From Alphaproteobacteria bacterium (lineage in GTDB: Bacteria > Pseudomonadota > Alphaproteobacteria > Sphingomonadales > Kordiimonadaceae): DNA of 64,000 bases. The stretch spans positions 62,001 to 126,000 of the forward strand of contig JAJFIU010000162.1 of assembly GCA_021774695.1 (NCBI GenBank). Reading direction: 5' to 3'. Below, piece by piece: positions 1 to 56,253 of the stretch. Positions within the stretch are counted from its first letter, which is position 1; each line of letters starts with the position of its first letter. Position numbers and translations under genes: made by a program. Under the pieces are notes generated by a model that saw only the letters and a list, made by a program, of their open reading frames with translations, searched no databases and was not told where the DNA came from.

Positions 1-1
1 C

Positions 2-1144
2 GACATAAAGCAACTTCGTGGTCAGGCTTTTTCCGTAGCTCAGAAGCCTCCCAGCACCGAAATCCCTGACGCAATCTGCGAAACCGCCGCGCGGCTGGTG
101 TTGGTAAACGGTCGTTTTGACGTAGAGCGAAGCAACTTCGGCGACCTGCTACAAGCAATGTCTATTCGCCCAATAGCCAATCATCTGATGGCAAACAATG
201 ACCGCGCCAATGAATTGCATAGCGGCAGCGACGCACTTACGGTTTTGAACACTGCTTTGATGCGGGATGGGTTAGTTTTTTCAGTGCCTGCAGGCGTTGA
301 AATAGAAGAGCCTATCGAGATTGTCCACCTGATGTCCGGTGCAGACGGCGCGGCCGCCCATGTGCGACATCTTATTGAATTGGGCGAAGGTGCAAAGGCT
401 ACGATCCTGGAGCGGTTTGTCGGTGATGAAAGCACCTACTGGTTCAATTCCGTGCTGCAAGCCCGGGTTGCCGAAGGGGCTGCACTCAACCATTACCGCC
501 TGCAAACAGAAGGCCCGCAGGCCATTCATACCGCCAAAGCTGTTGTTAGTGTCGGCGCTGGCGGAAACTATAATGCCTGTAATATCTCGCTCGGGGCATC
601 GCTATCGCGGTTTGATGCCGAGGTGAGACTATTGGTTGACGGGGCAAACGCCACAATCGACGGGGTAGCGCTAGCGGCCAGCCGCCAAAGCCATGACATG
701 CTGGTTCATGTGGACCACCGGATGCCAACAACCACCAGCGATCAGGTTTTCCGCACCGTTGCAGATGCGCTGGGTAAAAGCTCTTTCCAGGGCAAAATTA
801 CAGTCGCTGTGGGTGCCCAACAAACCCTGGCTGACCAGTCTTTCAAGGCACTGTTGCTGGCCCGCACGGCGGAAGCTAACGCCAAACCCGAGCTTGAGAT
901 ATATGCTGACGATGTAAAATGCAGCCACGGCGCCACAATCGGCGAACTGGATGCAAAGGCAATGTTTTACCTGATGTCACGGGGTATTGACCCAGCCACC
1001 GCGAGGCAGATGCTGGTGGAAGCTTTCACGGACGACGCGCTTGAGCGCATCGATAACGCGAGTGTTGCAGACGCTTTCCGCGACCGTATCAAAAGTTGGA
1101 TGATGGCACATGCGCCGACACAGCTTGAGAAAGATGTCGCCTGA
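2..1144 (+). CDS. sufD: SufD, Fe-S cluster scaffold subunit (5' end outside window)
   Basis: SufD is a subunit of the cytoplasmic SufBCD complex, on which Fe-S clusters are built. The reading frame is open from base 2, so the gene starts upstream of the window; an internal GTG at 98 is not the start. About 380 residues are visible. They carry the SufB/SufD beta-helix core and the C-terminal stretch SHGATIGELD followed by FYLMSRGI, which is typical of the family. Its TGA overlaps the ATG of sufS (TGATG), so the two are translationally coupled. sufT and sufA follow, which supports the call. SufB would also match the core, but sufS directly downstream fits SufD better. Confidence 0.95.
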   Translation, partial: DIKQLRGQAFSVAQKPPSTEIPDAICETAARLVLVNGRFDVERSNFGDLLQAMSIRPIANHLMANNDRANELHSGSDALTVLNTALMRDGLVFSVPAGVEIEEPIEIVHLMSGADGAAAHVRHLIELGEGAKATILERFVGDESTYWFNSVLQARVAEGAALNHYRLQTEGPQAIHTAKAVVSVGAGGNYNACNISLGASLSRFDAEVRLLVDGANATIDGVALAASRQSHDMLVHVDHRMPTTTSDQVFRTVADALGKSSFQGKITVAVGAQQTLADQSFKALLLARTAEANAKPELEIYADDVKCSHGATIGELDAKAMFYLMSRGIDPATARQMLVEAFTDDALERIDNASVADAFRDRIKSWMMAHAPTQLEKDVA

Positions 1145-2412
1145 TGTCGGACACCGCTAAAAATATCAACCCGGCGCCTCAATTGGCACCAACGCCTTTG
1201 GACGTAGCGGCAATTCGCGCTGATTTTCCAATTTTCAGCCAAACGGTATATGGGAAACCACTAACGTTCCTCGATTCCGCTGCCAGCGCCCAAAAACCAA
1301 GTGTGGTCATCGAGGCGGAAAAAGACCTGTATGAGCATTATTACGCCAACATCCACCGCGGCGTATACAAGTTCAGTCAAGACGCGACCGAAGCTTACGA
1401 GCAAACCCGCGAGACGGTTCGCACTTTTATAAACGCGCGTAGGTCGCGAGAATGTATTTTTGTGCGCGGTGCCACCGAGGGCATTAATCTGGTTGCTCAA
1501 ACCTGGGGCAGACACAATATCGCTGAGGGCGATGAAATTATCCTGTCGGAGCTAGAGCACCACTCGAACATCGTTCCCTGGCAAATGTTGGCCGAGGAAA
1601 AAGGCGCCTCTATCAGGGTGATCCCGCTTCTGGATGACGGCTCGGTGGACATGGAAACCTACGCCTCGCTATTGAGCGAGCGCACAAAACTGGTCGCGGT
1701 TGCCCATATTTCCAATGCTATCGGTACTCATTTGCCGGTGGAGGAAATTATTCGCGCAGCCCACGCAGTTGGCGCAAAAGTGTTGATAGACGGGTGTCAG
1801 GCCGCACCGCACTGCCCCATTGACGTTCAGGCACTGGACGCAGATTTTTATGTCTTTTCAGCGCACAAAGTTTACGGCCCGACCGGCATAGGCGTGCTGT
1901 ACGGCAAAAAAGCATTGCTGGACGAAATGCCGCCATGGCAGGGCGGCGGCGACATGATCTCAACCGTTACCTTTGCCAAAACAACTTACAATGACCTACC
2001 GCACAAATTTGAAGCCGGCACACCGAACATCGCGGGCGGCATTGCATTTCGCCATGCGCTCGACTATGTCAGTGCCATTGGATTTGACCGTATCGCCGCT
2101 CACGAAGTTGACCTGCGTGACTATACCACCAGCCAGTTGCAAGGCTCGAACAGCGTTCGGTTGATCGGCACGGCAGAAGGCAAAGGCGCAATTATCAGCT
2201 TTGTGATGGAGCAAGCCCACCCGCACGATATAGGCACAATCCTTGACCGCCAGGGCATTGCAATACGGGCCGGCCATCACTGTGCGCAACCGCTGATGGA
2301 CCGGTTTGATATTCCTGGTACTGTTCGTGCCAGCTTTGGTATTTATAATGACCGCAATGACGTTGACAGGCTGATAGAGGGCCTGAAAAAAGTAGTGGAT
2401 ATTTTCGGATGA
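1144..2412 (+). CDS. sufS: SufS, PLP-dependent cysteine desulfurase
   Basis: Class-V aminotransferase-fold enzyme that takes sulfur from cysteine, giving alanine and a persulfide for Fe-S assembly. At 422 residues it is slightly longer than usual because of a 20-residue N-terminal extension. The PLP lysine is K242 in FSAHKVYGPTG, and the persulfide cysteine is C380 in RAGHHCAQP, the group II (SufS) arrangement. The ATG overlaps the sufD stop, and its own stop overlaps the sufT ATG (ATGA), so it sits in a tightly coupled operon. No SufE gene is visible in this part of the operon; the sulfur acceptor may be elsewhere. Confidence 0.97.
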   Translation: MSDTAKNINPAPQLAPTPLDVAAIRADFPIFSQTVYGKPLTFLDSAASAQKPSVVIEAEKDLYEHYYANIHRGVYKFSQDATEAYEQTRETVRTFINARRSRECIFVRGATEGINLVAQTWGRHNIAEGDEIILSELEHHSNIVPWQMLAEEKGASIRVIPLLDDGSVDMETYASLLSERTKLVAVAHISNAIGTHLPVEEIIRAAHAVGAKVLIDGCQAAPHCPIDVQALDADFYVFSAHKVYGPTGIGVLYGKKALLDEMPPWQGGGDMISTVTFAKTTYNDLPHKFEAGTPNIAGGIAFRHALDYVSAIGFDRIAAHEVDLRDYTTSQLQGSNSVRLIGTAEGKGAIISFVMEQAHPHDIGTILDRQGIAIRAGHHCAQPLMDRFDIPGTVRASFGIYNDRNDVDRLIEGLKKVVDIFG

Positions 2413-2936
2413 CGGACGAAAGCAAAAGAGATGTTTTGGATGTGGCGACCAAGGATGTGCCGCCGGAAAACCAACCAAAAAACATTGAGCGCCCGATGGT
2501 AAGCCCGCAGGAAGGCGCCTATTTTCTGGACAAGTTTCTCGACCAAAAAGCCGACTCTGAGTCGGCGGAGTCGGATGGCGATTCGCCAAATGGATCAGAC
2601 GAGACTACTGCCGCACCTGCGCCTTCTACGCCCGAAGAGCTTCAAGGCAATATCGTTACGGCGCTGCAGGAAATATATGACCCGGAAATTCCGGTAAACA
2701 TCTATGAGTTGGGTTTGATTTATTCAGTTGACGTTGCAACGGACTTTTCAACTCGGGTAACCATGACACTCACCACACCTCACTGCCCGGTCGCAGAATC
2801 TATGCCCGGCGAAGTAGAATTAAAAGTTAGTTCGGTCAACGGTGTTAACGGCGTTCAGGTTGACCTTGTTTGGGAACCACCGTGGGAAATGTCCATGATG
2901 TCTGATGAAGCACGACTTGAACTCGGTTTGTTGTAA
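2409..2936 (+). CDS. sufT: SufT, MIP18/DUF59-family Fe-S assembly factor
   Basis: A 175-residue protein. Its C-terminal ~105 residues are the DUF59/MIP18 domain, seen in EIYDPEIPVNIYELGLIY and the TLTTPHCP motif with its conserved cysteine, ending in DLVWEPPW and ARLELGLL. The N-terminal ~70 residues are acidic, low-complexity and probably disordered. Family members act as auxiliary factors in Fe-S maturation. The start overlaps the sufS stop by four bases, and its end is followed within 14 bases by sufA, so it belongs to the operon. The long acidic N-terminus is the only odd feature. Confidence 0.9.
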   Translation: MTDESKRDVLDVATKDVPPENQPKNIERPMVSPQEGAYFLDKFLDQKADSESAESDGDSPNGSDETTAAPAPSTPEELQGNIVTALQEIYDPEIPVNIYELGLIYSVDVATDFSTRVTMTLTTPHCPVAESMPGEVELKVSSVNGVNGVQVDLVWEPPWEMSMMSDEARLELGLL

Positions 2937-2949
2937 AGGAGTATCAGCG

Positions 2950-3279
2950 ATGAAATCAGCGATTGAAATTACCGACAAGGCAGCCAATCACATTCGCGCG
3001 CTTTTGGCAAAAAATGCAGATGCAATCGGCATCAAACTTGGCACCGAAACCCACGGCTGTTCAGGGCTTGGTTATACTGTGGACTATCTGTCCGCCGCTG
3101 ACCCCGAGTGCGAAATGGTGGAAGACAAAGGCGTTAAGGTTTTTGTCGACCGCAAGTCACTTTTGTTTTTGCTGGGCACGCAGATGGACTGGGAAGACAC
3201 CATGTTTTCCACCGGGTTCAAATTCACCAACCCTAACGAAAAAGGCCGCTGTGGCTGCGGCGAAAGCTTCCATACATAG
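2950..3279 (+). CDS. sufA: SufA/IscA-family A-type Fe-S carrier
   Basis: A 109-residue HesB/IscA-fold protein. The three cluster-ligand cysteines are present: C37 in HGCSGLGY, and C101 and C103 in the C-terminal CGCGESF. It is expected to receive clusters from SufBCD and pass them to apo-proteins. The start is ATG at 2950, preceded by AAAGGAG about eight bases upstream. A longer open frame from 2905 overlaps sufT and lacks a ribosome site, so it is rejected. It is the last gene of the suf operon here; arfB converges on it 30 bases downstream. Confidence 0.95.
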   Translation: MKSAIEITDKAANHIRALLAKNADAIGIKLGTETHGCSGLGYTVDYLSAADPECEMVEDKGVKVFVDRKSLLFLLGTQMDWEDTMFSTGFKFTNPNEKGRCGCGESFHT

Positions 3280-3309
3280 AGCCGAGAGCAACGAGCAGGT
3301 GTGTGCGCC

Positions 3310-3732
3310 TTAATCGTCGCGCGTTACCTTGCCGCGGGTCTTTTTCCTACCACCGACAATTTTTTTATCCGTCAGCCGTCGTAGTTTGGACGATTTTGAT
3401 GGGCGAGTTTTGACTCTATAAACCGGTTTCACGGCTGCTTTCTTCAACAGATCAGCCAACCGCTCCAGCGCATCACGCCGATTTTCACCTTGGGTGCGAA
3501 ACCGGTTGGCAGTCAGTACCAACACACCGTCGCGCGTTAGTTTTTTGCCCGCGACTGTGCTGAGGCGAATAAGCATTTTCTCATCGATATCAGTCGATTT
3601 TTTGGCGTCAAACCGCAGCTGAACCGCTGTCGCCACCTTATTGACATTTTGCCCCCCCGGCCCAGCCGAACGAATAAAGCTGAGCTGAATTTCGCGCTCA
3701 TCAATAATGATATTCGGGGTGATTTCCAGCAT
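3310..3732 (-). CDS. arfB: ArfB (YaeJ), stalled-ribosome rescue hydrolase
   Basis: A 140-residue release-factor-like protein, matching the family length. The GGQ motif is at residues 26-28 in SAGPGGQNVNK, the catalytic loop that hydrolyses peptidyl-tRNA. The C-terminal tail is strongly basic (TRPSKSSKLRRLTDKK, then GGRKKTRGK), as needed to enter the empty mRNA channel of a stalled ribosome. The start is the ATG of MLEITPNI at 3732; the frame is open 19 codons further, but those residues do not resemble the family. It stands alone, convergent to the suf operon. Confidence 0.95.
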   Translation of the reverse strand: MLEITPNIIIDEREIQLSFIRSAGPGGQNVNKVATAVQLRFDAKKSTDIDEKMLIRLSTVAGKKLTRDGVLVLTANRFRTQGENRRDALERLADLLKKAAVKPVYRVKTRPSKSSKLRRLTDKKIVGGRKKTRGKVTRDD

Positions 3733-3890
3733 ACGCCAACCATACCAGTTGCGCCCAGTTCTGCAACGGTGGTGGCTGGTGCCAGGCACCTCGTCCCTAT
3801 CTATAGTTCAATTACAAATTATACCGCGAGGACACCAAGTGGCATTTTACCGCGGATATGTTATTGTCTCGTCAAGATGGAGAAAACACC

Positions 3891-4307
3891 ATGCGCAACC
3901 TATCGCTAGCAATTTTGATTAGCACTTTTTTGGCCATGCCTTCTTACTCGGCAGCAGATGAAACCCCCGTAGCCGATGACCAGGCCAAAATTGAGCGGCT
4001 GGAACTAGAGGTAAAACAACTCACTGAAGAATTACAGAGGGTACAGATGCAATATATCGCACTGCAAACCCAACTGGACAGTGTTCGAAATATTATAGGC
4101 AATAAAACCGATATAACTCTCAACGACGGTGAAGATGTTGACAAACAGCTATGTCTGACAAGACTTTTGGAATTAAATGAAACCAACGCAAAGTTGAAAA
4201 GTCTTGGCTATACCGATCAACATCCGGATATGAAAAACATTAATAGGAACATTGAATCGCATATGCTTGAATGCGGGCAATCTGGCGACAAGCCTTTTGA
4301 TGGCTAA
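3891..4307 (+). CDS. Small exported coiled-coil protein, unknown function
   Basis: A 138-residue product, not recognised. It starts with a clear signal peptide (MRNLSLAILISTFLAMPSYSAADE, likely cleaved after the SA of YSA). A heptad-rich helix with leucine, glutamate and glutamine follows at about residues 35-70 (KIERLELEVKQLTEELQR), then a C-terminal region with two cysteines that could form a disulfide in the periplasm. The ATG at 3891 is preceded by GGAG in AGATGGAGAAAACACC. A longer frame from 3858 would bury the signal peptide. It is a single gene between arfB and an unrelated minus-strand gene. A periplasmic role is inferred only. Confidence 0.75.
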   Translation: MRNLSLAILISTFLAMPSYSAADETPVADDQAKIERLELEVKQLTEELQRVQMQYIALQTQLDSVRNIIGNKTDITLNDGEDVDKQLCLTRLLELNETNAKLKSLGYTDQHPDMKNINRNIESHMLECGQSGDKPFDG

Positions 4308-4443
4308 CCGACGGCATGGCTAACGCCTGAGCTTGTCCGCAAGCAGGGCGACCCATCCTTTCGGCTGATGGCATCTGACACAGAGGTGCGTTTATTGCTT
4401 TCATTGTGGGCCGAACCACGCTGCCACCCTGCAGTCAACTACG

Positions 4444-43986: not shown

Positions 43987-43995
43987 GACTCAACC

Positions 43996-44100
43996 CGCTA
44001 AAATCAGAACCAAACTCGCCGTAATAAGAGTTTAACTCGCTAAAATCAGAACCAAAGTCGCTAAAATTAGACCTAAACTCGCCTAAAATGCATGCCTTAA
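43996..44100. repeat. Five-unit 21-bp tandem repeat array in a divergent promoter
   Basis: Five 21-bp units in exact phase start at 43996, 44017, 44038, 44059 and 44080, each beginning CGC. Units 1, 3 and 4 share CGCTAAAATCAGAACC with a few changes; units 2 and 5 are more diverged (CGCCGTAATAAGAG and CGCCTAAAATGCAT). The period is two helical turns, so a repeated binding site would face one side of DNA. It lies between the divergent Sel1-SPOR and TPR-SPOR genes and reaches within 10 bases of the former's start. Confidence 0.85.
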
Positions 44101-45804: not shown

Positions 45805-46215
45805 ATGTCGCGCATGTCAGTGTTTAACAGCCCGTTTATTCTGGGTTTTGACCAATTGGAAGACCTTCTGGACAGCGTCGCCAAAAACGCCGGTGAAGGC
45901 TATCCGCCCTATAATATCGAACATCTGGCCGACGAAGCGATCCGAATCACCCTCGCGGTTGCCGGGTTTACGCAGGACGATGTGGCCATTTCGCTGGAAG
46001 CCAACCAGTTGATCATCCGCGGCAAGCAAGGCGAAGTGCCCGCAGGCAAAGAATTCCTGCACCGCGGCATCGCCGCCCGCCAGTTCGTGCGCAAATTTGT
46101 GCTCGCCGACGGCATGGAAGTGACCGACGCCTTCATGGAAAACGGCCTATTGCATATTGATCTGCACCGCCCCATCAGCGAGCCCGTGATCAAGACAATC
46201 CCGATTAGGGTGTGA
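45805..46215 (+). CDS. Small heat shock protein, Hsp20 family
   Basis: A 136-residue alpha-crystallin-domain chaperone. The N-terminal arm (FNSPFILGFDQLEDLLDSV) matches IbpA-class proteins; the core contains IRITLAVAGFTQDDVAISLE, LIIRGKQ, RGIAARQFVRKFVLADGMEV and NGLLHIDL. The C-terminal anchoring motif is IPIRV. The last ~50 bases of the gene recur at 49325-49377 as a fragment. GGAGGT precedes the ATG. It holds denatured proteins for later refolding. Confidence 0.95.
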   Translation: MSRMSVFNSPFILGFDQLEDLLDSVAKNAGEGYPPYNIEHLADEAIRITLAVAGFTQDDVAISLEANQLIIRGKQGEVPAGKEFLHRGIAARQFVRKFVLADGMEVTDAFMENGLLHIDLHRPISEPVIKTIPIRV

Positions 46216-46217
46216 GG
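46165..46217. repeat. Left-end repeat, copy 1 (hsp20 3' end)
   Basis: These 53 bases, from CACCGCC to GTGAGG, cover the last 17 codons of hsp20. They recur at 49325-49377 with 47 of 53 identities. They mark the start of unit 1 of the two-unit structure. Confidence 0.9.
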
Positions 46218-46278
46218 AAGCGCGGGCACAGCTACTTTCGCCCAACAACGGAAACTCTAGAGCTATGACGAAGGCCCC

Positions 46279-46899
46279 TTAATTATTCATCTCATTGGCG
46301 GCAGCACCGTCAGCATCTGGCCTATTTATAAGTTCGAATGTATCCAACAATAAACCATAAGTGTCAGAGCTGGTTTGAATGTGCTGCAACCTTATTTTCT
46401 CTAAGTACATGTGCGGGTCAAGACCCTCTCTAACCAAAACAAAATTCCCGCAAACGGAAGAATATTGGCTGTTAAGAAAAGCATAATGACCAATCAAAAA
46501 TTGCAGATCTTTCCTAGGGTTTTCATAGATGATGAGGCTTCCGAATTTAGAATTCTTTTTATTATTAATTGACGCAGTTAGATATCGCGTCCCCTTGGCG
46601 TCTTCGAGTTTCATGATGCTCGGTTCATCAACACCTGGCGGGTACCAATAAACATGAAAGTCACCGCGCCATGATCTTTTTATTTTGACCTTTGGAAAAA
46701 TAATCCGTTTCGGAGTATTTGCTGATCTGCAGCCGGTGTAAGCACCGCAGTACCTATTCAAATTACTAACAAATATGGAGTGAATTGATCTCACAACAAA
46801 TCTGACTATCAGCAAGGGCACAAGAACCAAAAACACCCAGCCAGCATTTTCGACTACGCCACCAACCATTTGTTCCCAGTAGCCATTCGGCAATTCCAT
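46279..46899 (-). CDS. Hypothetical membrane-anchored protein (island A)
   Basis: A 206-residue protein, not recognised. One hydrophobic helix (about residues 16-37, NAGWVFLVLVPLLIVRFVVR) is followed by a soluble domain of alternating charged and aromatic residues (FPKVKIKRSWRGDFHVYWYP, YLTASINNKK). The region is visibly more AT-rich than hsp20 upstream, which suggests transfer. It lies 54 bases after the 273-residue gene on the same strand and may be cotranscribed. Function unknown. Confidence 0.65.
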   Translation of the reverse strand: MELPNGYWEQMVGGVVENAGWVFLVLVPLLIVRFVVRSIHSIFVSNLNRYCGAYTGCRSANTPKRIIFPKVKIKRSWRGDFHVYWYPPGVDEPSIMKLEDAKGTRYLTASINNKKNSKFGSLIIYENPRKDLQFLIGHYAFLNSQYSSVCGNFVLVREGLDPHMYLEKIRLQHIQTSSDTYGLLLDTFELINRPDADGAAANEMNN

Positions 46900-46953
46900 A
46901 AAAATTATCTTTCTGTTGGCCTATCGGCTCCTCTAATTATCCAATTCCAATCC

Positions 46954-47775
46954 CTACTCAAAAAGCTCTGCTTGTTTGATGAACGGTGGATAAAATACGC
47001 CAATAATCACGTATGGATTTGGAGCATTCATATTGTGAAACTTGAGGGTAGTTCCTAGGAAGAGGTACACGTCTTTGGTCATGGCGATATCGTCGAAATA
47101 CTTTTCTTTCACCTTGGCTATCGCAGCTTTCTCATCACCATTTTTCAAGCAATTCCAGTACAATTGCCCAATTTCCCAGTCTTCGATCATCATAGTGCTT
47201 TCGCGGCCATGACCATCTACAAACCGATATGAAAACTTGTAGGGTAGTTTCTTCACTAATTTAAAATCTGAGTGGTCGTTTTCTTGAAATAAAGACCCTT
47301 GGTTTAAACTAGCTTCTGCGGCCTGTTTGCGGCTGACATCCCATTCCCGGTCAACTGCTGAAACCCTAAAATCAAGGATTTTTGCTGGTTTAAGAATAGC
47401 AAAAGAGAAAGTATTGCTTTTAGCGCCGTCAATAACTTCATCCAAACTTGAGTAAACTGGATTATTATCCAAGATAAACTTCCTGCGCTCTTCCCAATTA
47501 CGGTCTGTGCTGATCACTTCGCCTAATTGGATAGTGTCAATATTTGTGGGGCTATAACTTTCAGGTCGTTGATCTTTTATATTTTTTTTAAGATCAAGCT
47601 CAATCCACTGGTATTTTCGATAGCGCTGATTGTCTTCTAAAAACCGGAATGGCGAAGGGTAGATTCTTATCCAAGAGCCATCCTCACGAAATCCCGCAGT
47701 GCACACAAGTTCAATATGTTTCTGAGATAATACAGGGTAGGTTTTAACTGCAATTAGAACCCGTGTGCGTGCCAT
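46954..47775 (-). CDS. Unknown protein paired with a DUF488 gene (island A)
   Basis: A 273-residue soluble protein. The N-terminus MARTRVLIAVKTYPVLSQKH, with VCTAGFREDGSWIRIYPSPFR and the DQRPESYSP segment, forms a compact alpha/beta region. The C-terminus KDVYLFLGTTLKFHNMNAPN then VIIGVFYPP is the second conserved-looking block. Proteins of this general look are often encoded next to DUF488 proteins, as here (13-base gap, same strand), so the two probably act together. No enzymatic motif is certain. AT-rich relative to neighbours. Confidence 0.72.
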   Translation of the reverse strand: MARTRVLIAVKTYPVLSQKHIELVCTAGFREDGSWIRIYPSPFRFLEDNQRYRKYQWIELDLKKNIKDQRPESYSPTNIDTIQLGEVISTDRNWEERRKFILDNNPVYSSLDEVIDGAKSNTFSFAILKPAKILDFRVSAVDREWDVSRKQAAEASLNQGSLFQENDHSDFKLVKKLPYKFSYRFVDGHGRESTMMIEDWEIGQLYWNCLKNGDEKAAIAKVKEKYFDDIAMTKDVYLFLGTTLKFHNMNAPNPYVIIGVFYPPFIKQAELFE

Positions 47776-47788
47776 TTAGAAAACCTTG

Positions 47789-48691
47789 TCATAAGTGTTG
47801 TATGTCATATTTCCATTCTGGTAAGGCTTGCAAAGCTTTTACAACTCGTCCGCGATGGCACATACAAGCTTCGGCCTCAAAGCATGTGATCGCTACGCGC
47901 CCATATTGCATAAATATATTATATAATTGTCTCACAGACGCAATGTTTTCTTTTAAAACAGTATCTTCGTATTCATCAAAAAGCCGATCATAATCACTCT
48001 GGCTTTTCAGTGATTGACGTTTTTCCGATACAATGCCCAACTCTGGAAAATGCAGATACTCGATTTCGAGTTTAGCCAAAGTCCCAGACAACGTCTTCTT
48101 TGAAAAACCATATTTGCGGCTTAATGGGTTCTTTCTTACATCAACTAAAACAGAGATATTGTTTTGGATGAGCTTGTTCAAATAATTTTCGAATGATGAG
48201 CCTTCATAACCGATTGTGAAAAAACAGTGCTCTTTTGAGGAAGGTCGCGCGTCTTGAATTTTTTGCATATCAGCGTCTGACATCAAATCATAGGCTATTT
48301 CACTACGTGTCGCGAAATACGGATATTTTTTGTATACTTCGTGAATTAAGTCATTGCCCTTAACCGCGCTGTATTTTTGCTGGAACAACTCTATTTTCTG
48401 CCTATCTTCACGTTTAATAGAAGCTAAAAACGTTGCCCCGTCTTCCAATTCCCATGCGTCGACACTTTTCAATACACCCATTTCGGTCAGTCGACGGCGA
48501 TCAGCATATGACTGGAAGGAAAAGCAGCCATATTTAAATGGTACAAATTCATAGCTTTTTTCTTTTTGGCAAATCTGAGTAAAGAGAAACAAATACTTCT
48601 GAAGGTCAATTTTAGATAGTCTTCCACCAAACGCTTCCAGTAATGAAAGCATTATTCTCTGACGATAAAAATAAGTAGGGCTTTTTTCCAT
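47789..48691 (-). CDS. DUF488 protein with an N-terminal winged-helix/SocA-like domain
   Basis: A 300-residue fusion. Residues 1-150 (RLSKIDLQKYLFLFTQICQK and FVPFKYGCFSFQSYADRRRL) resemble the regulatory domain related to SocA/Panacea antitoxins. Residues ~155-295 are DUF488: FFTIGYEGSSFENYL, VLVDVRKNPLSRKYGFSK, and the C-terminal CFEAEACMCHRG (C270, C276, C278, H279, R280). It is the first gene of a two- or three-gene AT-rich operon. A role in stress response, toxin-antitoxin or phage defence is possible but not shown. Confidence 0.8.
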   Translation of the reverse strand: MEKSPTYFYRQRIMLSLLEAFGGRLSKIDLQKYLFLFTQICQKEKSYEFVPFKYGCFSFQSYADRRRLTEMGVLKSVDAWELEDGATFLASIKREDRQKIELFQQKYSAVKGNDLIHEVYKKYPYFATRSEIAYDLMSDADMQKIQDARPSSKEHCFFTIGYEGSSFENYLNKLIQNNISVLVDVRKNPLSRKYGFSKKTLSGTLAKLEIEYLHFPELGIVSEKRQSLKSQSDYDRLFDEYEDTVLKENIASVRQLYNIFMQYGRVAITCFEAEACMCHRGRVVKALQALPEWKYDIQHL

Positions 48692-48902
48692 TGTTCAGAT
48701 TCTACACAAGTTCTATGTCTTTACCAAGTTTAAGGTTGCTCTTGTATACTTGTTTATCCACCGACATCAACGCCCGTTCCTCCTACCTTCTAAATTTAAG
48801 CATGGTACACTCATGTCATGTTCACGGCCCATTGAAAAAAAGAGCGCTATATAAGCGGAGGAAAATTCATAAGCCAAATTTTTGCGATCAGGGCAGAAGA
48901 CC

Positions 48903-49322
48903 ATGCACCAGCATCACGACACAATTACCAAACAAACAAGGGGCCAAGGCTGCTGCGATATCAGCCGTGATGTTGCCGCGTTTGTTGCTGAAAGCGGCGT
49001 GCAAAACGGCTTGCTAACGCTGTTGATCCAGCACACATCGGCGTCGCTCACGATTCAGGAAAATGCCGACCCGGACGTGCAGCTTGACCTGACAGCGGCG
49101 CTTGACCGACTAGCACCCGAAAGCAACCGCCTGTACCGCCACAGCGCCGAAGGGCCGGACGACATGCCCGCGCATATCAAATCAGCGCTTACCGATACGT
49201 CACTTTCCATTCCGGTTATGGACGGGCGCCTGCGGCTCGGGACATGGCAAGGCATCTATATACTCGAGCACCGACGACACGGGCATGAGCGCAGCATCGC
49301 CTGTCATATCATGGGTGAATAG
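48903..49322 (+). CDS. yjbQ: YjbQ/UPF0047 family protein (secondary thiamine-phosphate synthase-like)
   Basis: A 139-residue protein of the UPF0047/YjbQ family: FVAESGVQNGLLTLLIQHTS, ASLTIQENADPDVQLDL and the histidine-rich RHSAEGPDDMPAHIKSAL, then LRLGTWQGIYILEHR. YjbQ shows weak thiamine-phosphate synthase activity in E. coli. The start is ATG at 48903 after GGGCAGAAGACC; a GTG-type upstream opening at 48882 is less likely. Its last 36 bases recur at 54129-54164, and an hsp20 end fragment begins three bases after its stop. Confidence 0.92.
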   Translation: MHQHHDTITKQTRGQGCCDISRDVAAFVAESGVQNGLLTLLIQHTSASLTIQENADPDVQLDLTAALDRLAPESNRLYRHSAEGPDDMPAHIKSALTDTSLSIPVMDGRLRLGTWQGIYILEHRRHGHERSIACHIMGE

Positions 49323-49324
49323 CC
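49289..49324. repeat. Right-end repeat, copy 1 (yjbQ 3' end)
   Basis: 36 bases from GCGCAGCATCGCC to GAATAGCC, covering the last 11 codons of intact yjbQ. Identical to 54129-54164 at 35 of 36 positions. They close unit 1. Confidence 0.9.
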
Positions 49325-49377
49325 CACCGCCGCATCAGCGAGCCCGCGGTCAAGACAATCCCGGTCCGGGTGTGAGG
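49325..49377 (+). pseudogene. Remnant 3' end of a second hsp20 (left-end repeat, copy 2)
   Basis: 53 bases with 47 identities to the end of hsp20. Translated in frame they give HRRISEPAVKTIPVRV and a stop, versus HRPISEPVIKTIPIRV in the intact gene. The changes are conservative and keep the C-terminal I-x-V anchor, so this is the scar of a divergent functional hsp20, not random sequence. No other hsp20 part is present nearby. Confidence 0.85.
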
Positions 49378-49407
49378 GTGAGTGAAAGCAGCCTGAATTA
49401 TTGCCTA

Positions 49408-49436
49408 TTATAATACCAAGGCAATTCATGTATAAT
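49408..49436 (+). promoter_or_regulatory. Candidate promoter of the island B genes
   Basis: A perfect TATAAT at 49431-49436, with a poor -35 (TTATAA at 49408-49413, 17-base spacer), about 50 bases before the first exported-protein gene. The surrounding 60 bases are AT-rich. Confidence 0.35.
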
Positions 49437-49485
49437 CACTGATCAATGGTTCCGAGTAATCTCAAAAGAGAGAAAAGGAAAAACC

Positions 49486-50079
49486 ATGCGTGTATTTATT
49501 GTCCTGTTATTGATGACAACTGTTGGTTCTACAGTTCATGCACAGCTGACACCCGGTGACGTTGTATCCTTGGCTCAAGCGCTGTTTGAGGCACGCATGG
49601 ACATACACAATGCTCAAGAAGACGCTGAAGGCAATACAAACGATGCCGACACGGTCGAACCCGAGTATAATCCGTCAGATGCCTTGGCTACCAGTTGTTA
49701 TGGTGATTTCCCTTGTAAGGTATGCATGAAGCCCGCAATTGACGTTGCAAATGATGCTTATGAAGTTCTGGCACGCAATCACGCCTGGAAGAAATGGGTT
49801 GATGGGGAATACAAACGTATGGACGCGCTTGCTACGGCGGCTTCTGGTTTAAACCCTTATGCGAAAACCGCTTATGCGCTCACAAAATCAAGGGATGTCT
49901 TGCCTGCCAAAAGGGCGTTTGAGGAAAATGTAAAAACCGCCCAGACAACCACGCTAAACAGTCTCAAGAGTGCTTTCTTGAAAATTGGTCAATGCGAAGC
50001 TGAACATCTTGGCACCGATGACTTCACCCAGATAGCCTTGCTTACCTGGCAGATTATGAAGGTGAAATATGTTGATTAA
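49486..50079 (+). CDS. Exported hypothetical protein with a cysteine cluster (island B)
   Basis: A 197-residue protein with a signal peptide (MRVFIVLLLMTTVGSTVHAQ, cut after HA). The mature part is helical, with three cysteines close together (SCYGDFPCKVCMKP, near residues 70-80) and one more at ~170 (LKIGQCEAEH), enough for two disulfides. The cluster also resembles a small metal or redox site, but no family was recognised. The ATG follows AAAGGAAAAACC. It overlaps the next gene by 11 bases, so the two are coupled. Confidence 0.75.
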   Translation: MRVFIVLLLMTTVGSTVHAQLTPGDVVSLAQALFEARMDIHNAQEDAEGNTNDADTVEPEYNPSDALATSCYGDFPCKVCMKPAIDVANDAYEVLARNHAWKKWVDGEYKRMDALATAASGLNPYAKTAYALTKSRDVLPAKRAFEENVKTAQTTTLNSLKSAFLKIGQCEAEHLGTDDFTQIALLTWQIMKVKYVD

Positions 50080-50695
50080 CCCTGTGAATAAAATCGCGCT
50101 TTTTGCTCTTCTAACTATGTTTTTTTCAGCGTTCAGTTCTGCTCAGGAACTTGATGCTGAAGCAAGCCGGGATGCAGGCGATGATTATGCCAGCGCGCTG
50201 CGTATCAGGGTTAACACCCCTCTGGACAAGCCCAAGGGCCGCACAATGTCATGGCGCGGTAGCGTAAGCTCAAATGATAGAATTGACGCTTTCAAATTCT
50301 CCCCGACACCCGTGAAAGGCCAGATCATCATGCTGGCGGTACAAAGCGAAGCCGGGCCTTTGGAGGTTCGTATAATCGACCGTCGGTCTGGCAGCATACT
50401 TGTTGAAGCAGAGAAGGTAGGTGACACATACGGAGCGATTTTTATGCCCCAAACCGGCGTGTTGGTAACTATTGGATTTGTTGAGGGTGACACCAACCAG
50501 CCGTATCATGCCGGTATAGTATTTTCCAAACCTGAAGAAATGGGCATTCCTTCGCAAGACGCTGCAACAAAAGCTTTTGCCGAGGCAATGAAGCGCAAAC
50601 CAACCATGAAAGGCTTGCCGGAGGGTTTCAGTTTAATTGTTCCCAAAGACAAAGACGCGAAAAAAGACGACGACGGATCGGACAGAGACGGCTGA
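50069..50695 (+). CDS. Exported beta-rich protein, PPC-domain-like (island B)
   Basis: A 208-residue protein. After a signal peptide (cut near FSSAQE, residue 26), the stretch DAGDDYASALRIRVNTP, then WRGSVSSNDRIDAFKFS, has the pattern of bacterial pre-peptidase C-terminal beta-sandwich domains. The domain ends near residue 165; the rest is a charged tail (KDKDAKKDDDGSDRDG). It is translated with the upstream gene. Its stop lies directly against the stop of the convergent gene (50696), with no gap. Confidence 0.75.
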   Translation: MLINPVNKIALFALLTMFFSAFSSAQELDAEASRDAGDDYASALRIRVNTPLDKPKGRTMSWRGSVSSNDRIDAFKFSPTPVKGQIIMLAVQSEAGPLEVRIIDRRSGSILVEAEKVGDTYGAIFMPQTGVLVTIGFVEGDTNQPYHAGIVFSKPEEMGIPSQDAATKAFAEAMKRKPTMKGLPEGFSLIVPKDKDAKKDDDGSDRDG

Positions 50696-51586
50696 TTATC
50701 GTTTAAGAGCGAAACCTACCAAAAGCCATGAACCGCCTTCATTATTAGCCTCAAATGTCATCTTTGGTTTTATTTTGGAAAAACCCGCAAGCGGGTTGCG
50801 CTTACCCATTGTCACTTCAACCAAAGCCGACCAGTGATCACCGTCCAGCGTTTCCTCAATAATCAACCAGGATTCAATGTCCTGAAACAACAGCTTTGTC
50901 GTGGCCTCGTTGCGTGCACGCTTCGACGCGGCATCCGCACGCCATAAAGGTGCAATTTCATCCCCTATCTTTTTGACAGCCGGGCGCATTGTTGCGGGCT
51001 TTTTCAGGTCAACCACAGATCTGTTAGCAACCAGAAAATCGAGATATGCCTTCAATGTGGAATCGGCGCTCTTTGCCGGCTCCAGCTTTTGCGCTTTGGG
51101 CAGAACAACGACGGTTTCCTCAATTACTTTCTTTGGTCGTTTGTCGATTGATCTTAGAAACATCCAGTTGCCTTCTGATCGAATAAAGCGAAACGCAAAC
51201 GGAATTGGTTCACTTTGCCGTGGCTGGACCGATGTGAAGGCAACGTCAGCGCGGGCCACGTCTCCTGCAACACGCACATCGCTAATCACCCATGATTTCG
51301 GGCCATGAAATACCAGTTTGGCAACCAGATCGACTTCAGGCACTTCACCGCTTGATATCCTGCTGGTTTCGGTTGATCTAACAAAATGCGTCATCGAATG
51401 ACTAATGAGAGGCATTGTTGTTGATTGCCCGCTGCTGTCTTTCGCACCGCGTGCAGCGGCAGACAATCGGGAAAACTCGGTAAAAAAATCGTCGATAAAG
51501 GCGCTCAATACTGCATCTTCACTGGTTTCAGCAGTTGATGAAACAGACATAAACACCAGCATCGCGGTTGCTATTAATTTCTTCAA
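50696..51586 (-). CDS. Exported hypothetical protein, two NTF2-like halves (island B)
   Basis: A 296-residue protein with a signal peptide (cut after STA at ~19). Two similar halves are suggested: AVLSAFIDDFFTEFSRLSAA...WVISDVRVAGDVARADVAF with RSEGNWMFLRSI, and LKAYLDFLVANRSV...WLIIEETLDGDHWSALVEV with EGGSWLLVGF. Each runs helix pair, then curved sheet, as in NTF2/DUF4878 folds. This is inference from pattern. It follows the VWA gene by three bases on the same strand. Confidence 0.7.
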   Translation of the reverse strand: MKKLIATAMLVFMSVSSTAETSEDAVLSAFIDDFFTEFSRLSAAARGAKDSSGQSTTMPLISHSMTHFVRSTETSRISSGEVPEVDLVAKLVFHGPKSWVISDVRVAGDVARADVAFTSVQPRQSEPIPFAFRFIRSEGNWMFLRSIDKRPKKVIEETVVVLPKAQKLEPAKSADSTLKAYLDFLVANRSVVDLKKPATMRPAVKKIGDEIAPLWRADAASKRARNEATTKLLFQDIESWLIIEETLDGDHWSALVEVTMGKRNPLAGFSKIKPKMTFEANNEGGSWLLVGFALKR

Positions 51587-51589
51587 TGA

Positions 51590-53977
51590 TCAATCCTCCA
51601 CGACAAACGTATATGATGTAAAAGCCTTGTTTCCGGCCATTTGACTGAAAATTTGCAACATCACATCTCGCGTATCGGGTGGTAAATCAAAAAACAAAGC
51701 CTGACGCCCGGTTAAACCGTTAAATCGCTTGATCGTGCGCTCTGTATCCAGGTTTTTCAGCAGTACGCGATATTTGAATGCAGGATCGGTAAAGTTGATA
51801 ACGACCCCCAGTTCTTCCGAGCCATCCTGTATGCCCGTTATTTCGAAACTATCTGATCTGTCTTGCAGACCGATATGTCCGACCACGTCTTGGTAAACAT
51901 TGACAGTCCTTATGTCTGGGGCAAGGTCATCCGGTGCTTCATATTCGGCCACCACATCACCCGCCTCGTCAATGAAAAGATCAAAGCGCGTGTCTTTATT
52001 TATCATCATGGCATTAGCGCGCACATGGATATAGACGCCGTCTCCGGTCATATCCAGTATCTGCGCTTCTTTCTGCTCGCCGGGTTCAGCCGACCTGAAC
52101 GTTAGCTGGCGGTAGGGACCTGCTATTTTTTCTCCGTCAGCCTGTTTGAATTCAGCCCAGAAGTTGGAAAAGTCGAAGCCTTTCATTTCGACCAATTTGC
52201 CGTCTTTGTTGAGGCTAATAATCCTGCCTTGCGCTGTTACGATTATGCGCAGGCGTTGTGCTTTTTTTAGAGGTACAAAGAAATATTGCTCTTCGCCTTT
52301 ATTAAGATGCTGAGTAAATGTGTATGCACCTTCATCAAGAGTTACCGCCTCATCGATCGAAGCGCCACCTTGCACGGGATTAACAAAACGGCCCCAATCA
52401 AGATCGATTTTGTCTGCGACAACTTCGGTAATTTTCAACATTGCTTCTTCAAGTTCGAAGGCAGTAGGAGCATCAATATACAGCCCGCAACCGGCTGCAG
52501 CATTGGCCTGCATTTCTGCACGCGCTTTGGGGTCCAGATCAAATCCGACAATATGCAGGTTTGTATCAACACATATATCTGCCAATGCCCTGATGGCGGC
52601 AATCGGGTCTCCGCCGCAAGTTTCTTCACCGTCTGTTATCAGAACGATCTGCCGACGACGGTCTGCAAACGCCTTGAGGTCCTCACCGGCTGCAGTAACA
52701 CTGGCGGCAATCGGCGTGTAGCCGTAGGGCGACAACTGTCTGGCTGCCGCCAAAATATTGTCGGACTGGCCAACTGCAAACGGCATCAAAAGGTCAGTAT
52801 TTGGGCAAGATGCTTCCGGTGTTTTTTCCACTGTATTATCGAATCCGTAGGCCCTGAAACCAACGGTAATGTGCGGGGCATCCAAGGCCCCGATTGATTT
52901 TTCAAGCGCTGCCATCGCTTGCAGCATTTTGGCCCTGCCATCAATCCAGGCGGCCATTGAACCGGACACATCCAGGATCAATTCCACTGCAACCGGCTTG
53001 GGCGCAGCAGCCTCATCTGGCGGCAGTTTAATCTCCACTTTGAGGGGCTGGTCCGGAGGCAACGGCGCAAGAACAGGTGGGCTCGACCCAGCTCCTGTGC
53101 CCGCAGCCGGAGCTTGGGCGGCAGCCGCAGCGGGGCCTCCTGCGCCAGCTTTGGCCGCACCGGCCGCAGCTCCTGAACCGCCACCGCCGCCTGACCCTGC
53201 TGAACCTCCTGACCCTGAACCACCAGAACCTGAACCTCCAGCGCCCGCAGGCATGCCGCCCGCACCACCTGCTGGCATATCGCCCATGGCACTCGGCGGC
53301 ATATCAGACATTGCCGGTAGCATCGCACCCATCGCATTTGCAAATTCGCCGTAGTTTGAGGCTAAGGAAAAACTGGCCCCTGACGATAATCCAAGTTCCG
53401 CCAAGCCCGCCACATCCGCAGCTTCACCAAGGCCGACAACGTCCATCTGCATGCCGCCTGACCCGAACTCTTCCGCTGCCGGAACAGGGTCCTGGCCGCA
53501 GGTGTCCATGCCATCGGAGATGATGATAATTCGCCGGGGGCCGGTCCATCCTTTCAAGTCGTCGTGCGCCAATTCTATGGCATGGGTCAGAGGCGTTTTT
53601 TTGCCTTTTGCCCAGAGTTCACTTTGCAGCGCCTCCAGCACACCAATTTTTCGCGAGCCAAACGGCAATACAAAGGAAGTCGCTTTGCAATTTTCTTCCC
53701 GGGTGTCGGCTTGGCCGCCAGCAAAAAACCGAACAGCTACATATTCGCTGCCTTCAAACTCTTTTGAAAGCGCAGCAAAAAGAGTGCGTCCCATATCGAT
53801 TTTGCGCACGCCGTCCAGGAGGGTGTTCATTGAGCCAGATCGGTCGAACAAGATGACAATTCGCTCTGGTTTTTCTAGTGCAGGATCGGCTGGCTTTTCT
53901 TGTGCACGAACGACTGGACCGATAATTTGTAAGGCTAAACCCATAACCAAGGCTGCCGCCAGAGAAAATTTGCGCAT
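51590..53977 (-). CDS. Exported protein with two von Willebrand A domains (island B)
   Basis: A 795-residue protein starting at ATG 53977 (AGGAG upstream). Signal peptide residues 1-25. VWA domain 1 (~38-215) has the MIDAS motif DRSGSM at 45-50. A Gly/Ala/Ser/Pro-rich linker fills ~222-308. VWA domain 2 (~328-495) has DVSGS at 336-340 and TDGEETCGGDP. A beta-rich C-terminal third follows, starting with YTFTQHLNKGEEQYFFVPL, which resembles the sandwich after VWA domains in some secreted proteins. It probably binds metal-dependent protein partners outside the cytoplasm. Confidence 0.85.
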   Translation of the reverse strand: MRKFSLAAALVMGLALQIIGPVVRAQEKPADPALEKPERIVILFDRSGSMNTLLDGVRKIDMGRTLFAALSKEFEGSEYVAVRFFAGGQADTREENCKATSFVLPFGSRKIGVLEALQSELWAKGKKTPLTHAIELAHDDLKGWTGPRRIIIISDGMDTCGQDPVPAAEEFGSGGMQMDVVGLGEAADVAGLAELGLSSGASFSLASNYGEFANAMGAMLPAMSDMPPSAMGDMPAGGAGGMPAGAGGSGSGGSGSGGSAGSGGGGGSGAAAGAAKAGAGGPAAAAAQAPAAGTGAGSSPPVLAPLPPDQPLKVEIKLPPDEAAAPKPVAVELILDVSGSMAAWIDGRAKMLQAMAALEKSIGALDAPHITVGFRAYGFDNTVEKTPEASCPNTDLLMPFAVGQSDNILAAARQLSPYGYTPIAASVTAAGEDLKAFADRRRQIVLITDGEETCGGDPIAAIRALADICVDTNLHIVGFDLDPKARAEMQANAAAGCGLYIDAPTAFELEEAMLKITEVVADKIDLDWGRFVNPVQGGASIDEAVTLDEGAYTFTQHLNKGEEQYFFVPLKKAQRLRIIVTAQGRIISLNKDGKLVEMKGFDFSNFWAEFKQADGEKIAGPYRQLTFRSAEPGEQKEAQILDMTGDGVYIHVRANAMMINKDTRFDLFIDEAGDVVAEYEAPDDLAPDIRTVNVYQDVVGHIGLQDRSDSFEITGIQDGSEELGVVINFTDPAFKYRVLLKNLDTERTIKRFNGLTGRQALFFDLPPDTRDVMLQIFSQMAGNKAFTSYTFVVED

Positions 53978-54102
53978 TACAGATTGCTCCTGCCAAGAAC
54001 CGCAACGATACCACACCAAAGCCTTTCGGCACAGCAGCAATCCCCGGGACGTCTCGCTGAGTTTGAAAAAATACTACCCAATCAGTCCCAAACCAAAATA
54101 GG

Positions 54103-54164
54103 CGACACGGGCAAACTCTCCAGCTTAGGCGCAGCATCGCCTGTCATATCATTGGTGAATAGCC
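54103..54164 (+). pseudogene. Remnant 3' end of a second yjbQ (right-end repeat, copy 2)
   Basis: The last 36 bases (54129-54164) match the yjbQ end at 35 of 36 positions. Upstream, CGACACGGGCA at 54103-54113 also matches yjbQ (49275-49285) after a 12-base net insertion. The whole stretch reads in frame as RHGQTLQLRRSIACHIIGE and stop, versus RHGHERSIACHIMGE. So it comes from another yjbQ allele with a 4-codon loop difference; the rest of that gene is missing. Confidence 0.78.
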
Positions 54165-54171
54165 AGCTTTT

Positions 54172-55155
54172 CTAAAACTTATAGACCAGCGTTGCGCGGG
54201 TGATGGTATCCCACGAGGCGGCACCGGCGGGAGAATCCGAATCATATTGCACCTGAAGCGACAGTTGCGCTGCAAGGCTTGAATTGATCTGCGCCCCCAG
54301 GCTGGCGCGGTTGTCAAAGGTGAAGGACCCAGTGCCAAAAATGACAGAGGCCTGATCTTTAAAATCAATATTGTCGGTCAGTTTCAGCTCGTAGGTGCTG
54401 GATACCCGACCGAGAAATTCGGTTGAGGTTGCGCCGGTATCTTCAAACTTGTTGAAGCGCACACCCGGTCCGCCTTCAAGCCGCAAGGACTGGCGGTCAG
54501 TTTTCAACAACTGTGTGCCAAGGCCGAGGCTGTCAATGATCCGGTAATCAAACCCGGAGAAGCGGCTCACATCCACTTCCAGATAATTGGCAACATAAAT
54601 ACTGTCCCACGCTTTATAAAGTGTGTTGAACCGGGTTTGAAGACGGCGGCGGGTTGTGGTGCCGCGGCTGCGGGCGAAATCAAAATCAAGATTGATGTCA
54701 TGTTCCCACTTGTCGAAATCACGGCTCAGGGCCAAGCCAAAAGCGATAGACTGCTCGTCGGTGTCGCCGGTGCTGGTGGAGGCACCAAGCTGCGCAGTGA
54801 CATTCCACAAGGATGGATCCAGGTACCAGATGACGCCGCGGTCCCGGGATTTTTTCTCGGCGGCGATGACGGCTTGCTCAGCGGCAGCGACTTCGCGGCG
54901 GAAATCGGCTGAGACCCAATCGGCTTGCACAGCCGCTGCAGCCTTGAGAATGTCAATCCGTGCGGCGGGCCAAGTTTCCAGCGCCATGGTAACCATGGTA
55001 GCAAACGCGCGCTCGTCGCCTTTGGCAGCGGCAGTTTTCAGCATGTCTTCCAGACCCGGCGGCGTGGCGGCCGACGCGGGCACTGCCCAACCGGCCAGCA
55101 GCAGCATTGCAGCAACACAATATTTTTTTAATTTGAAAGAGGTGGTCACAGTCAT
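54172..55155 (-). CDS. DUF481-family outer-membrane beta-barrel protein
   Basis: A 327-residue protein. Signal peptide residues 1-29 (AVPASAAT). A helical N-terminal part (~30-110) is followed by amphipathic beta strands (WNVTAQLGASTSTGDTDEQS, WEHDINLDFDFARSRGTTTR) to a C-terminal phenylalanine (TLVYKF), the outer-membrane insertion signal. This is the DUF481/YdiY salt-inducible group. Function unknown. It starts the conserved region right of the variable locus; its 3' end is eight bases from the yjbQ remnant. Confidence 0.88.
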   Translation of the reverse strand: MTVTTSFKLKKYCVAAMLLLAGWAVPASAATPPGLEDMLKTAAAKGDERAFATMVTMALETWPAARIDILKAAAAVQADWVSADFRREVAAAEQAVIAAEKKSRDRGVIWYLDPSLWNVTAQLGASTSTGDTDEQSIAFGLALSRDFDKWEHDINLDFDFARSRGTTTRRRLQTRFNTLYKAWDSIYVANYLEVDVSRFSGFDYRIIDSLGLGTQLLKTDRQSLRLEGGPGVRFNKFEDTGATSTEFLGRVSSTYELKLTDNIDFKDQASVIFGTGSFTFDNRASLGAQINSSLAAQLSLQVQYDSDSPAGAASWDTITRATLVYKF

Positions 55156-55257: not shown

Positions 55258-56253
55258 ATGCCCACAGCGTTTGTAACTGGTGCAACTGGCTTTATCGGCA
55301 GACATCTTGTTGAAGTATTGCGCGAAGATGGCTGGACAATTGTCGCCGGTGTGCGGGATACCGCGCGGGCGGCAACGCTGCTGGGCGACGATATTACGCT
55401 GGTGAAAGCAGACCTTTTGAGCCCGGCGTCAATTCAACGAGCCATGCCCGATGTGGCCGACTGTGTTTTTCATGTTGCGGCTGATGTTAGCTCCTGGTCG
55501 AAAGATGCTGACCGACAGTATCAAACCAACGTTGAAGGCACGGCGGCGCTATTGCAGTCAACGCTGAACAAAGAGATCAAACGGCTGGTTCATGTTTCCT
55601 CCATCGTTACTTACGGCGAGCATGACGATGTCATTGACGATTTCACACCTCGGCTGGGCGCCACCAGCTGGGTAAGCTATGTGAGCACAAAGTCATACGC
55701 GGAGCGCAAAGTTAAAGAAGCGGTTGATCGCGGACTTGATGCGGTGATTGTTAACCCAACCGACATCGTCGGCAAATATGACGACCAAAACTGGATCCGC
55801 CTGATCAAAATGGTTGCAGACGACACGCTGCCGGCGGTACCGCCGGGCAACGGTAACTTCGCCAATGGCCGCGCTGTCGCTGAAGGGATTCTCGCAGCCT
55901 ACAAGCACGGCATTACCGGCGAAAATTATATATTGGGCGGGCCTTATGCCACGTTCCACGAGTTCTTGAGTTTGGCGGCCTCAAAGCTGGGCAAACCAGA
56001 GCCCAAGAAACCGATTTCACCGGTCGTGTTGAAACTTTATGCAAGGGTTTTGGAACTGGCCTCGAAAATAACCGGCAAACGCCCCGCTGTGACCAAAGAA
56101 GAAGCCTATTTTTCCTGCCAAAGCTACCGGGTTAATTACGACCGAGCGATCAATGACCTTGGTTACCGCGATGTGCCGCTGGAACAATCGATCGATGAAG
56201 CCATTGCATATTTGCGCGAAAAAGGGCTTATTTGCGCGAAAAAGGCGACCTGA
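55258..56253 (+). CDS. NAD-dependent epimerase/dehydratase (extended SDR)
   Basis: A 331-residue Rossmann-fold protein. The nucleotide site TGATGFIGRHLVEVL is at residues 8-22, VFHVAADVSSWSKDADRQYQ follows, and YVSTKSYAERKVKEA has the YxxxK catalytic pair. It is most like dihydroflavonol-reductase/3-beta-HSD-type proteins; substrate unknown. The C-terminal residues LICAKKAT come from a 20-bp duplication that shifted the frame (see findings). The end overlaps the MFS gene by 26 bases on the other strand. Confidence 0.9.
   Translation: MPTAFVTGATGFIGRHLVEVLREDGWTIVAGVRDTARAATLLGDDITLVKADLLSPASIQRAMPDVADCVFHVAADVSSWSKDADRQYQTNVEGTAALLQSTLNKEIKRLVHVSSIVTYGEHDDVIDDFTPRLGATSWVSYVSTKSYAERKVKEAVDRGLDAVIVNPTDIVGKYDDQNWIRLIKMVADDTLPAVPPGNGNFANGRAVAEGILAAYKHGITGENYILGGPYATFHEFLSLAASKLGKPEPKKPISPVVLKLYARVLELASKITGKRPAVTKEEAYFSCQSYRVNYDRAINDLGYRDVPLEQSIDEAIAYLREKGLICAKKAT

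Follow-up and report, generated by a model that had tools for sequence, protein, structure and literature searches.

Why are the ends of two neighboring core genes, hsp20 and yjbQ, each found twice around unrelated genes? In the window (the whole 64,000-nucleotide stretch of DNA that we analyzed), two units abut between hsp20 and a DUF481 gene. The original prediction was that these units, with common ends and different contents, mark a swap hotspot in which modules are exchanged between hsp20 and yjbQ. We asked what the units contain, how the interval varies across the genus, and how the arrangement may have formed.

Two abutting units with common ends

Pairwise comparison within the window reproduced the reported structure: the hsp20 3' ends at 46165-46217 and 49325-49377 are identical at 47 of 53 positions, the yjbQ 3' ends at 49289-49324 and 54129-54164 are identical at 35 of 36 positions, and units 1 and 2 meet at 49324/49325 with no gap. 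The gene contents given earlier also agree with our search of open reading frames (ORFs) against Pfam (hsp20, PF00011; DUF488; yjbQ, UPF0047; VWA; and DUF481). As had been stated, no integrase or transposase domain lies inside: Pfam found none among the ten ORFs tested. The parts of the locus are as follows.

45805..46215, plus strand: intact hsp20, the left core gene and anchor (PF00011, E 6e-16; sister of the hsp20 of species G015, 95% identical)
46165..46217, plus strand: 3' end of hsp20, left end of unit 1 (47/53 with 49325-49377)
46279..46899, minus strand: small unit 1 ORF with a hydrophobic N-terminal stretch and no family (ORF and Pfam search)
46954..47775, minus strand: PDC-M19B, candidate phage defence (PADLOC PDLC04508, E 2e-114, full length)
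47789..48691, minus strand: PDC-M19A with a C-terminal DUF488 domain, candidate phage defence (PADLOC PDLC04505, E 5e-115, full length; PF04343)
48882..49322, plus strand: intact yjbQ, a core gene, likely start ATG 48903 (PF01894, E 8e-42; vertical in the genus tree)
49325..49377, plus strand: orphan 3' end of hsp20 (hsp20'), start of unit 2 (repeat match; model R2, 47 bits)
49486..50079, plus strand: predicted exported protein B1 of unit 2 (ORF; 70% identical homologue in species G019)
50069..50695, plus strand: predicted exported protein B2 of unit 2 (ORF; weak VgrG/baseplate OB-like match only)
50696..51586, minus strand: predicted exported protein B3 of unit 2 (ORF; similar ORF in the same order on contig C210 of G019)
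51590..54040, minus strand: predicted exported VWA-domain protein B4 of unit 2, likely start an internal ATG at about 53978 (PF13519, E 3e-13; PF00092, E 1e-9)
54096..54164, plus strand: orphan 3' end of yjbQ (yjbQ') (35/36 with 49289-49324; model R1, 51 bits; minus-strand fold)
54172..55155, minus strand: DUF481 gene, the right core gene (PF04338, E 3e-44; adjoins yjbQ in congeners)

Both repeat pairs rank among the longest direct repeats within 43-57 kb, and all of the repeats are gene ends in the correct frame and order, which excludes chance. The joint places hsp20' just 2 bp past the stop codon of yjbQ. The yjbQ end of unit 2 had been given as 36 bp; that match stands, but the end is longer, since with an insertion of about 12 bases the homology reaches back to about 54096 (AGGCGACACGGGCA...). 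The window has other short repeats outside the units: direct repeats with a 21/42-bp unit (for example, CTCGCTAAAATCAGAACCAAA) at 43992-44096, upstream of a SPOR-domain gene, and a 20-bp tandem duplication (95% identical) at 56206-56245, near the 3' end of an epimerase gene.

A compact ancestral locus and its variants

The window's genome (G000) is a 3.8-Mb draft in 172 contigs with 90.7% completeness, and we compared it with 19 other species of the genus. Eleven of these have, in this order, the SPOR-domain gene, hsp20, yjbQ, DUF481 (in reverse orientation), and the epimerase gene, with no module. In the 11 compact species, the gap between hsp20 and yjbQ is mostly below 25 bp (a few are larger, or the genes overlap), and the gap between yjbQ and DUF481 is below 20 bp. 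Thus, the arrangement in the window is derived. In protein trees, hsp20, DUF481, and the epimerase group with G015, the nearest species, and with its sister G010; yjbQ is placed in the corresponding clade, and the intact copy therefore appears to be native. The trees give no support for a foreign origin of yjbQ.

Other species vary at the same place. G006 has a 2.8-kb insert, with an AraC regulator and an amidohydrolase, between its intact yjbQ and DUF481; the insert ends in a 31-bp remnant of the yjbQ 3' end just before DUF481. This remnant is closer to the native junction of G003 than is the 3' end of G006's own intact yjbQ. The topology in G006 is that of the window, but the genes and the anchor are different. 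In G015, a 54-bp yjbQ remnant lies by DUF481 and is followed by genes for a LysR regulator, an alcohol dehydrogenase, and a cytochrome b561; its hsp20 is on a different short contig, ahead of yet another gene. G010 does not contain this 3.2-kb block and runs straight into the genes beyond it. In G008, G002, and G004, yjbQ and/or DUF481 has been lost. An apparently truncated yjbQ in G011 was rejected as a further case and left out of the counts: the gene is cut by a masked run of Ns.

Overall, 7 of 18 species have a changed hsp20-DUF481 interval (several of the changes are gene losses), while the flanking SPOR-hsp20 and DUF481-epimerase junctions are unbroken in 17 of 17 (7/18 versus 0/17, p 0.008). 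If we count only the cases with both ends on one contig, the comparison becomes 3/14 versus 0/17 (p 0.08). The contents between the same core genes differ in each of G000, G006, G015, and G010. These comparisons support a variable interval whose insertions differ among relatives, and that part of the original prediction holds. The idea that modules are swapped cleanly, with constant ends in hsp20 and yjbQ, is not supported: 11 of the 18 informative congeners have no module, and the insert is not always between the hsp20 and yjbQ ends, as in G006 it comes after yjbQ. What we see is a small but real insertion site that varies and keeps readable scars; it is not a proven hotspot in the strict sense.

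Contents of the two units

Unit 1 contains PDC-M19A and PDC-M19B, which are adjacent and match PADLOC profiles over their full length (E 5e-115 and 2e-114). Among 80 PDC-M19 loci that we fetched from other genomes in several phyla, PDC-M19A was directly upstream of PDC-M19B in 79. By these profile matches, the pair is a candidate phage-defence system of PADLOC; we found no paper in the literature that names PDC-M19. The small ORF at 46279..46899 was absent from all 80 of these loci, so it is not part of the pair. The module of unit 1 (module A) has a G+C content of 40%, versus 56-58% in hsp20, yjbQ, and DUF481. No homologue of its DUF488 gene was found in the genus, and a family-wide search gave just one weak, partial match.

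Unit 2 (module B) encodes four proteins, most with signal-like N termini and one with a double VWA domain. We predict an exported, VWA-containing module and nothing more specific. Within the genus, G019 alone has a similar four-gene block; it lies on a contig (C210) that does not contain the anchor genes, and so it is unlinked to hsp20 and yjbQ. The G019 block (1-4316 of the stretch that we fetched) adjoins a transposase fragment. We also considered carriage of the modules by phages or plasmids and dropped the idea: B3 was absent from viral contigs and B2 from plasmids, and only partial DUF488 or VWA matches were found there.

A second yjbQ'-hsp20' junction in the same genome

When we used the yjbQ remnant of G015 as a BLAST query, it matched one place in the window's own genome, on another contig (C15). 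At C15:1545-1648, on the minus strand, there is a truncated, decayed 3' end of yjbQ with its stop codon, followed 7 bp later by a 3' end like that of hsp20'. Our sequence models gave 57 bits to the yjbQ part (R1) and 30 bits to the hsp20 part (R2); the C15 copy was in the training sets of both models, and the yjbQ part had first been found by BLAST. The hsp20 part outscored all of about 20,000 random segments and is closer to hsp20' than to hsp20. The C15 junction is 15-20% diverged from the one in the window. A PQQ dehydrogenase gene flanks it on one side and a small ORF on the other. Neither has any relation to units 1 and 2, and these flanks had no DNA-level conservation in the seven congeners that we searched.

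The 3.8-Mb genome thus contains the composite at two places, which agree in order, have near-identical spacing, and differ in the accessory genes around them. A model search found no such junction in the 19 congeners, and it was absent from viral contigs. Besides intact yjbQ and the remnants at the locus, the model for the yjbQ 3' end found only the single C15 copy, and we rejected the idea that this end is a mobile palindrome or a dispersed repeat. Some extra weak BLAST matches in the window's genome looked like chance on inspection, and a match in G010 (on C221) was an unrelated hairpin. Because the second junction is diverged, and because C15 matches the window's genome in tetranucleotide usage, an assembly error is less likely, and the joint is probably a real feature of the lineage.

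Formation of the locus

We favor, with a probability of about 0.5, a series of insertions, each with a homologous anchor at one end and an illegitimate joint at the other, which pushed older 3' ends aside. The starting point would be the compact order SPOR gene, hsp20, yjbQ, DUF481. Accessory modules would enter the hsp20-DUF481 interval one after another by homology-facilitated illegitimate recombination: one side of the incoming DNA would recombine in the conserved hsp20 or yjbQ, and the other side would join without homology. Each event would leave the gene on the anchor side intact and an orphan core-gene 3' end on the opposite side. For the window, an older step would have given hsp20, module B, a 3' remnant of yjbQ, and DUF481. 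In a later step, DNA with the hsp20 3' end, the PDC-M19 module, and yjbQ would have arrived, anchored in hsp20; its far joint would have fused the position 2 bp past the yjbQ stop to the old hsp20 copy, about 53 bp short of the end of that copy, and that end would thereby have been orphaned at the head of module B.

In favor of stepwise insertion, orphan core-gene 3' ends are found in three lineages (the window, G006, and G015), and the contents are all different. An orphan 3' end behind the insert, with a constant gene on the anchor side, is present at 49325-49377, as the 31-bp remnant of G006, and as the 54-bp remnant of G015. We found no donor genome with hsp20, module A, and yjbQ (the likeliest donors would be strains of the same species), and the direction that we give to the events is an inference. 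We tried to date hsp20' by phylogeny, but its 48 coding bases gave a tie: a sister of hsp20 or an older branch is equally parsimonious. Also, one local insertion by itself would not predict the decayed junction on C15.

The main rival explanation, which fits almost as well and which we consider a serious but tentative possibility, is a tandem duplication of about 0.5 kb, which took in the last 53 bp of hsp20 and everything up to 2 bp past yjbQ, followed by two insertions. Module A would then have entered copy 1 between hsp20 and yjbQ, and module B would have replaced most of the yjbQ of copy 2. The duplication yields the same joints as stepwise insertion, and this one event accounts for both repeat pairs and for the exact joint; the divergence of the two pairs is not significantly different (1/36 versus 6/53, p 0.23), and a multi-copy array could have let the yjbQ'-hsp20' junction move to C15. 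However, two later insertions are required, each starting 2 bp past an hsp20 stop. In addition, two sites have derived states in both hsp20 and G015 but probably ancestral ones in hsp20', and the remnants in G006 and G015 are left unexplained.

The two composites, with their constant order and spacing, different accessory flanks, and shared ends around differing contents, also bring to mind cassettes of an unknown mobile system. Under this explanation, the composite would be the boundary, and a recombinase acting in trans would cut the units out and integrate them, which would have built tandem arrays here and on C15. We consider this unlikely: the 3.8-Mb genome has just two of these junctions and the 19 congeners have none, the units do not carry a recombinase, the G006 insert has the yjbQ end only, and the composite folds no better than shuffled sequences do. 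The related proposal that the composite bounds an undescribed unit, excised and reinserted here and on C15, which spreads defence and exported-protein modules with no integrase of its own, seems quite improbable to us. A chimeric contig, in which the assembler or the binning joined alleles from two strains, might be suspected in an incomplete draft of 172 contigs, but it is very unlikely, as the junction is inside a 193-kb contig, a diverged junction of the same type is on another contig with matching tetranucleotide usage, and repeats that are so short and mismatched rarely produce assembly joins. Finally, integration into a gene end usually yields a direct repeat of the gene's 3' end around the accessory module, and the 53-bp direct repeats might be the attL and attR of an integrase-borne element that entered at the 3' end of hsp20. 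This seems highly improbable: the native, vertically inherited yjbQ lies between the repeats, no integrase was found in the segment and no recombinase domain in the ORFs of the units, and an identity of 89% would be low for an att pair of recent origin. We therefore return to stepwise insertion, which would make the locus a variant of a known process, apart from one oddity: the second junction on C15.

The yjbQ' remnants may have been kept for a reason. On the minus strand, yjbQ' (54096..54164) has a hairpin and a T-rich stretch just behind DUF481. Read outward from DUF481, the remnants of G015 and C15 also have a stable hairpin and then a T-rich stretch (z -2.75 and -2.28); the hairpin in the window is comparable, yet it is unexceptional versus shuffled sequences (z -0.31). 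From these hairpins, it is plausible that yjbQ' is a transcription terminator for DUF481. It may have been retained beside DUF481 in this role, which could explain why the remnants of different genomes start near the same base. If a remnant of yjbQ also serves as a terminator, the survival of such scars would be explained.

Relation to known systems

The locus resembles integron gene-cassette arrays in that its units stand in tandem and have common ends but unrelated contents. Unlike in integrons, the units contain no integrase, no attC-like site was noticed at the boundary, and only two junctions are known.

The closest parallels come from toxin loci. Homology-facilitated illegitimate recombination was proposed for arrays of T6SS effector-immunity modules in Vibrio cholerae (PMC5361080) and for orphan 3' cdi modules in Acinetobacter (PMC6336857). 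As in those arrays, there is a constant upstream gene, modules are added beside it, and displaced orphan 3' ends accumulate in tandem with no integrase. However, the constant genes there are toxin genes, while hsp20 and yjbQ are housekeeping genes; the modules here are a candidate defence pair and a putative exported VWA module; and the remnants are just 31-54 bp. The cDHS1 site of Pseudomonas aeruginosa likewise has variable, defence-bearing content between fixed core genes and no obvious mobile element, but it is a large site, with a median size of 26 kb, that is filled in most strains (PMC10250203), whereas the site described here is small, is empty in most of the genus, and has duplicated core-gene ends. 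Short variable segments that were ascribed to illegitimate recombination also lack known mobile elements; most of those loci are under 500 bp (PMC2884548), while the inserts here measure 2.7-4.7 kb, contain complete genes, and have kept ends of the core genes.

Core genes often have small modules between them, candidate anti-phage systems among these, and no mobile element that would account for their presence. At this locus, scars in three related lineages make the order and mechanism of insertion readable and testable. What is new is the decayed copy of the yjbQ'-hsp20' junction on another contig of the same genome.
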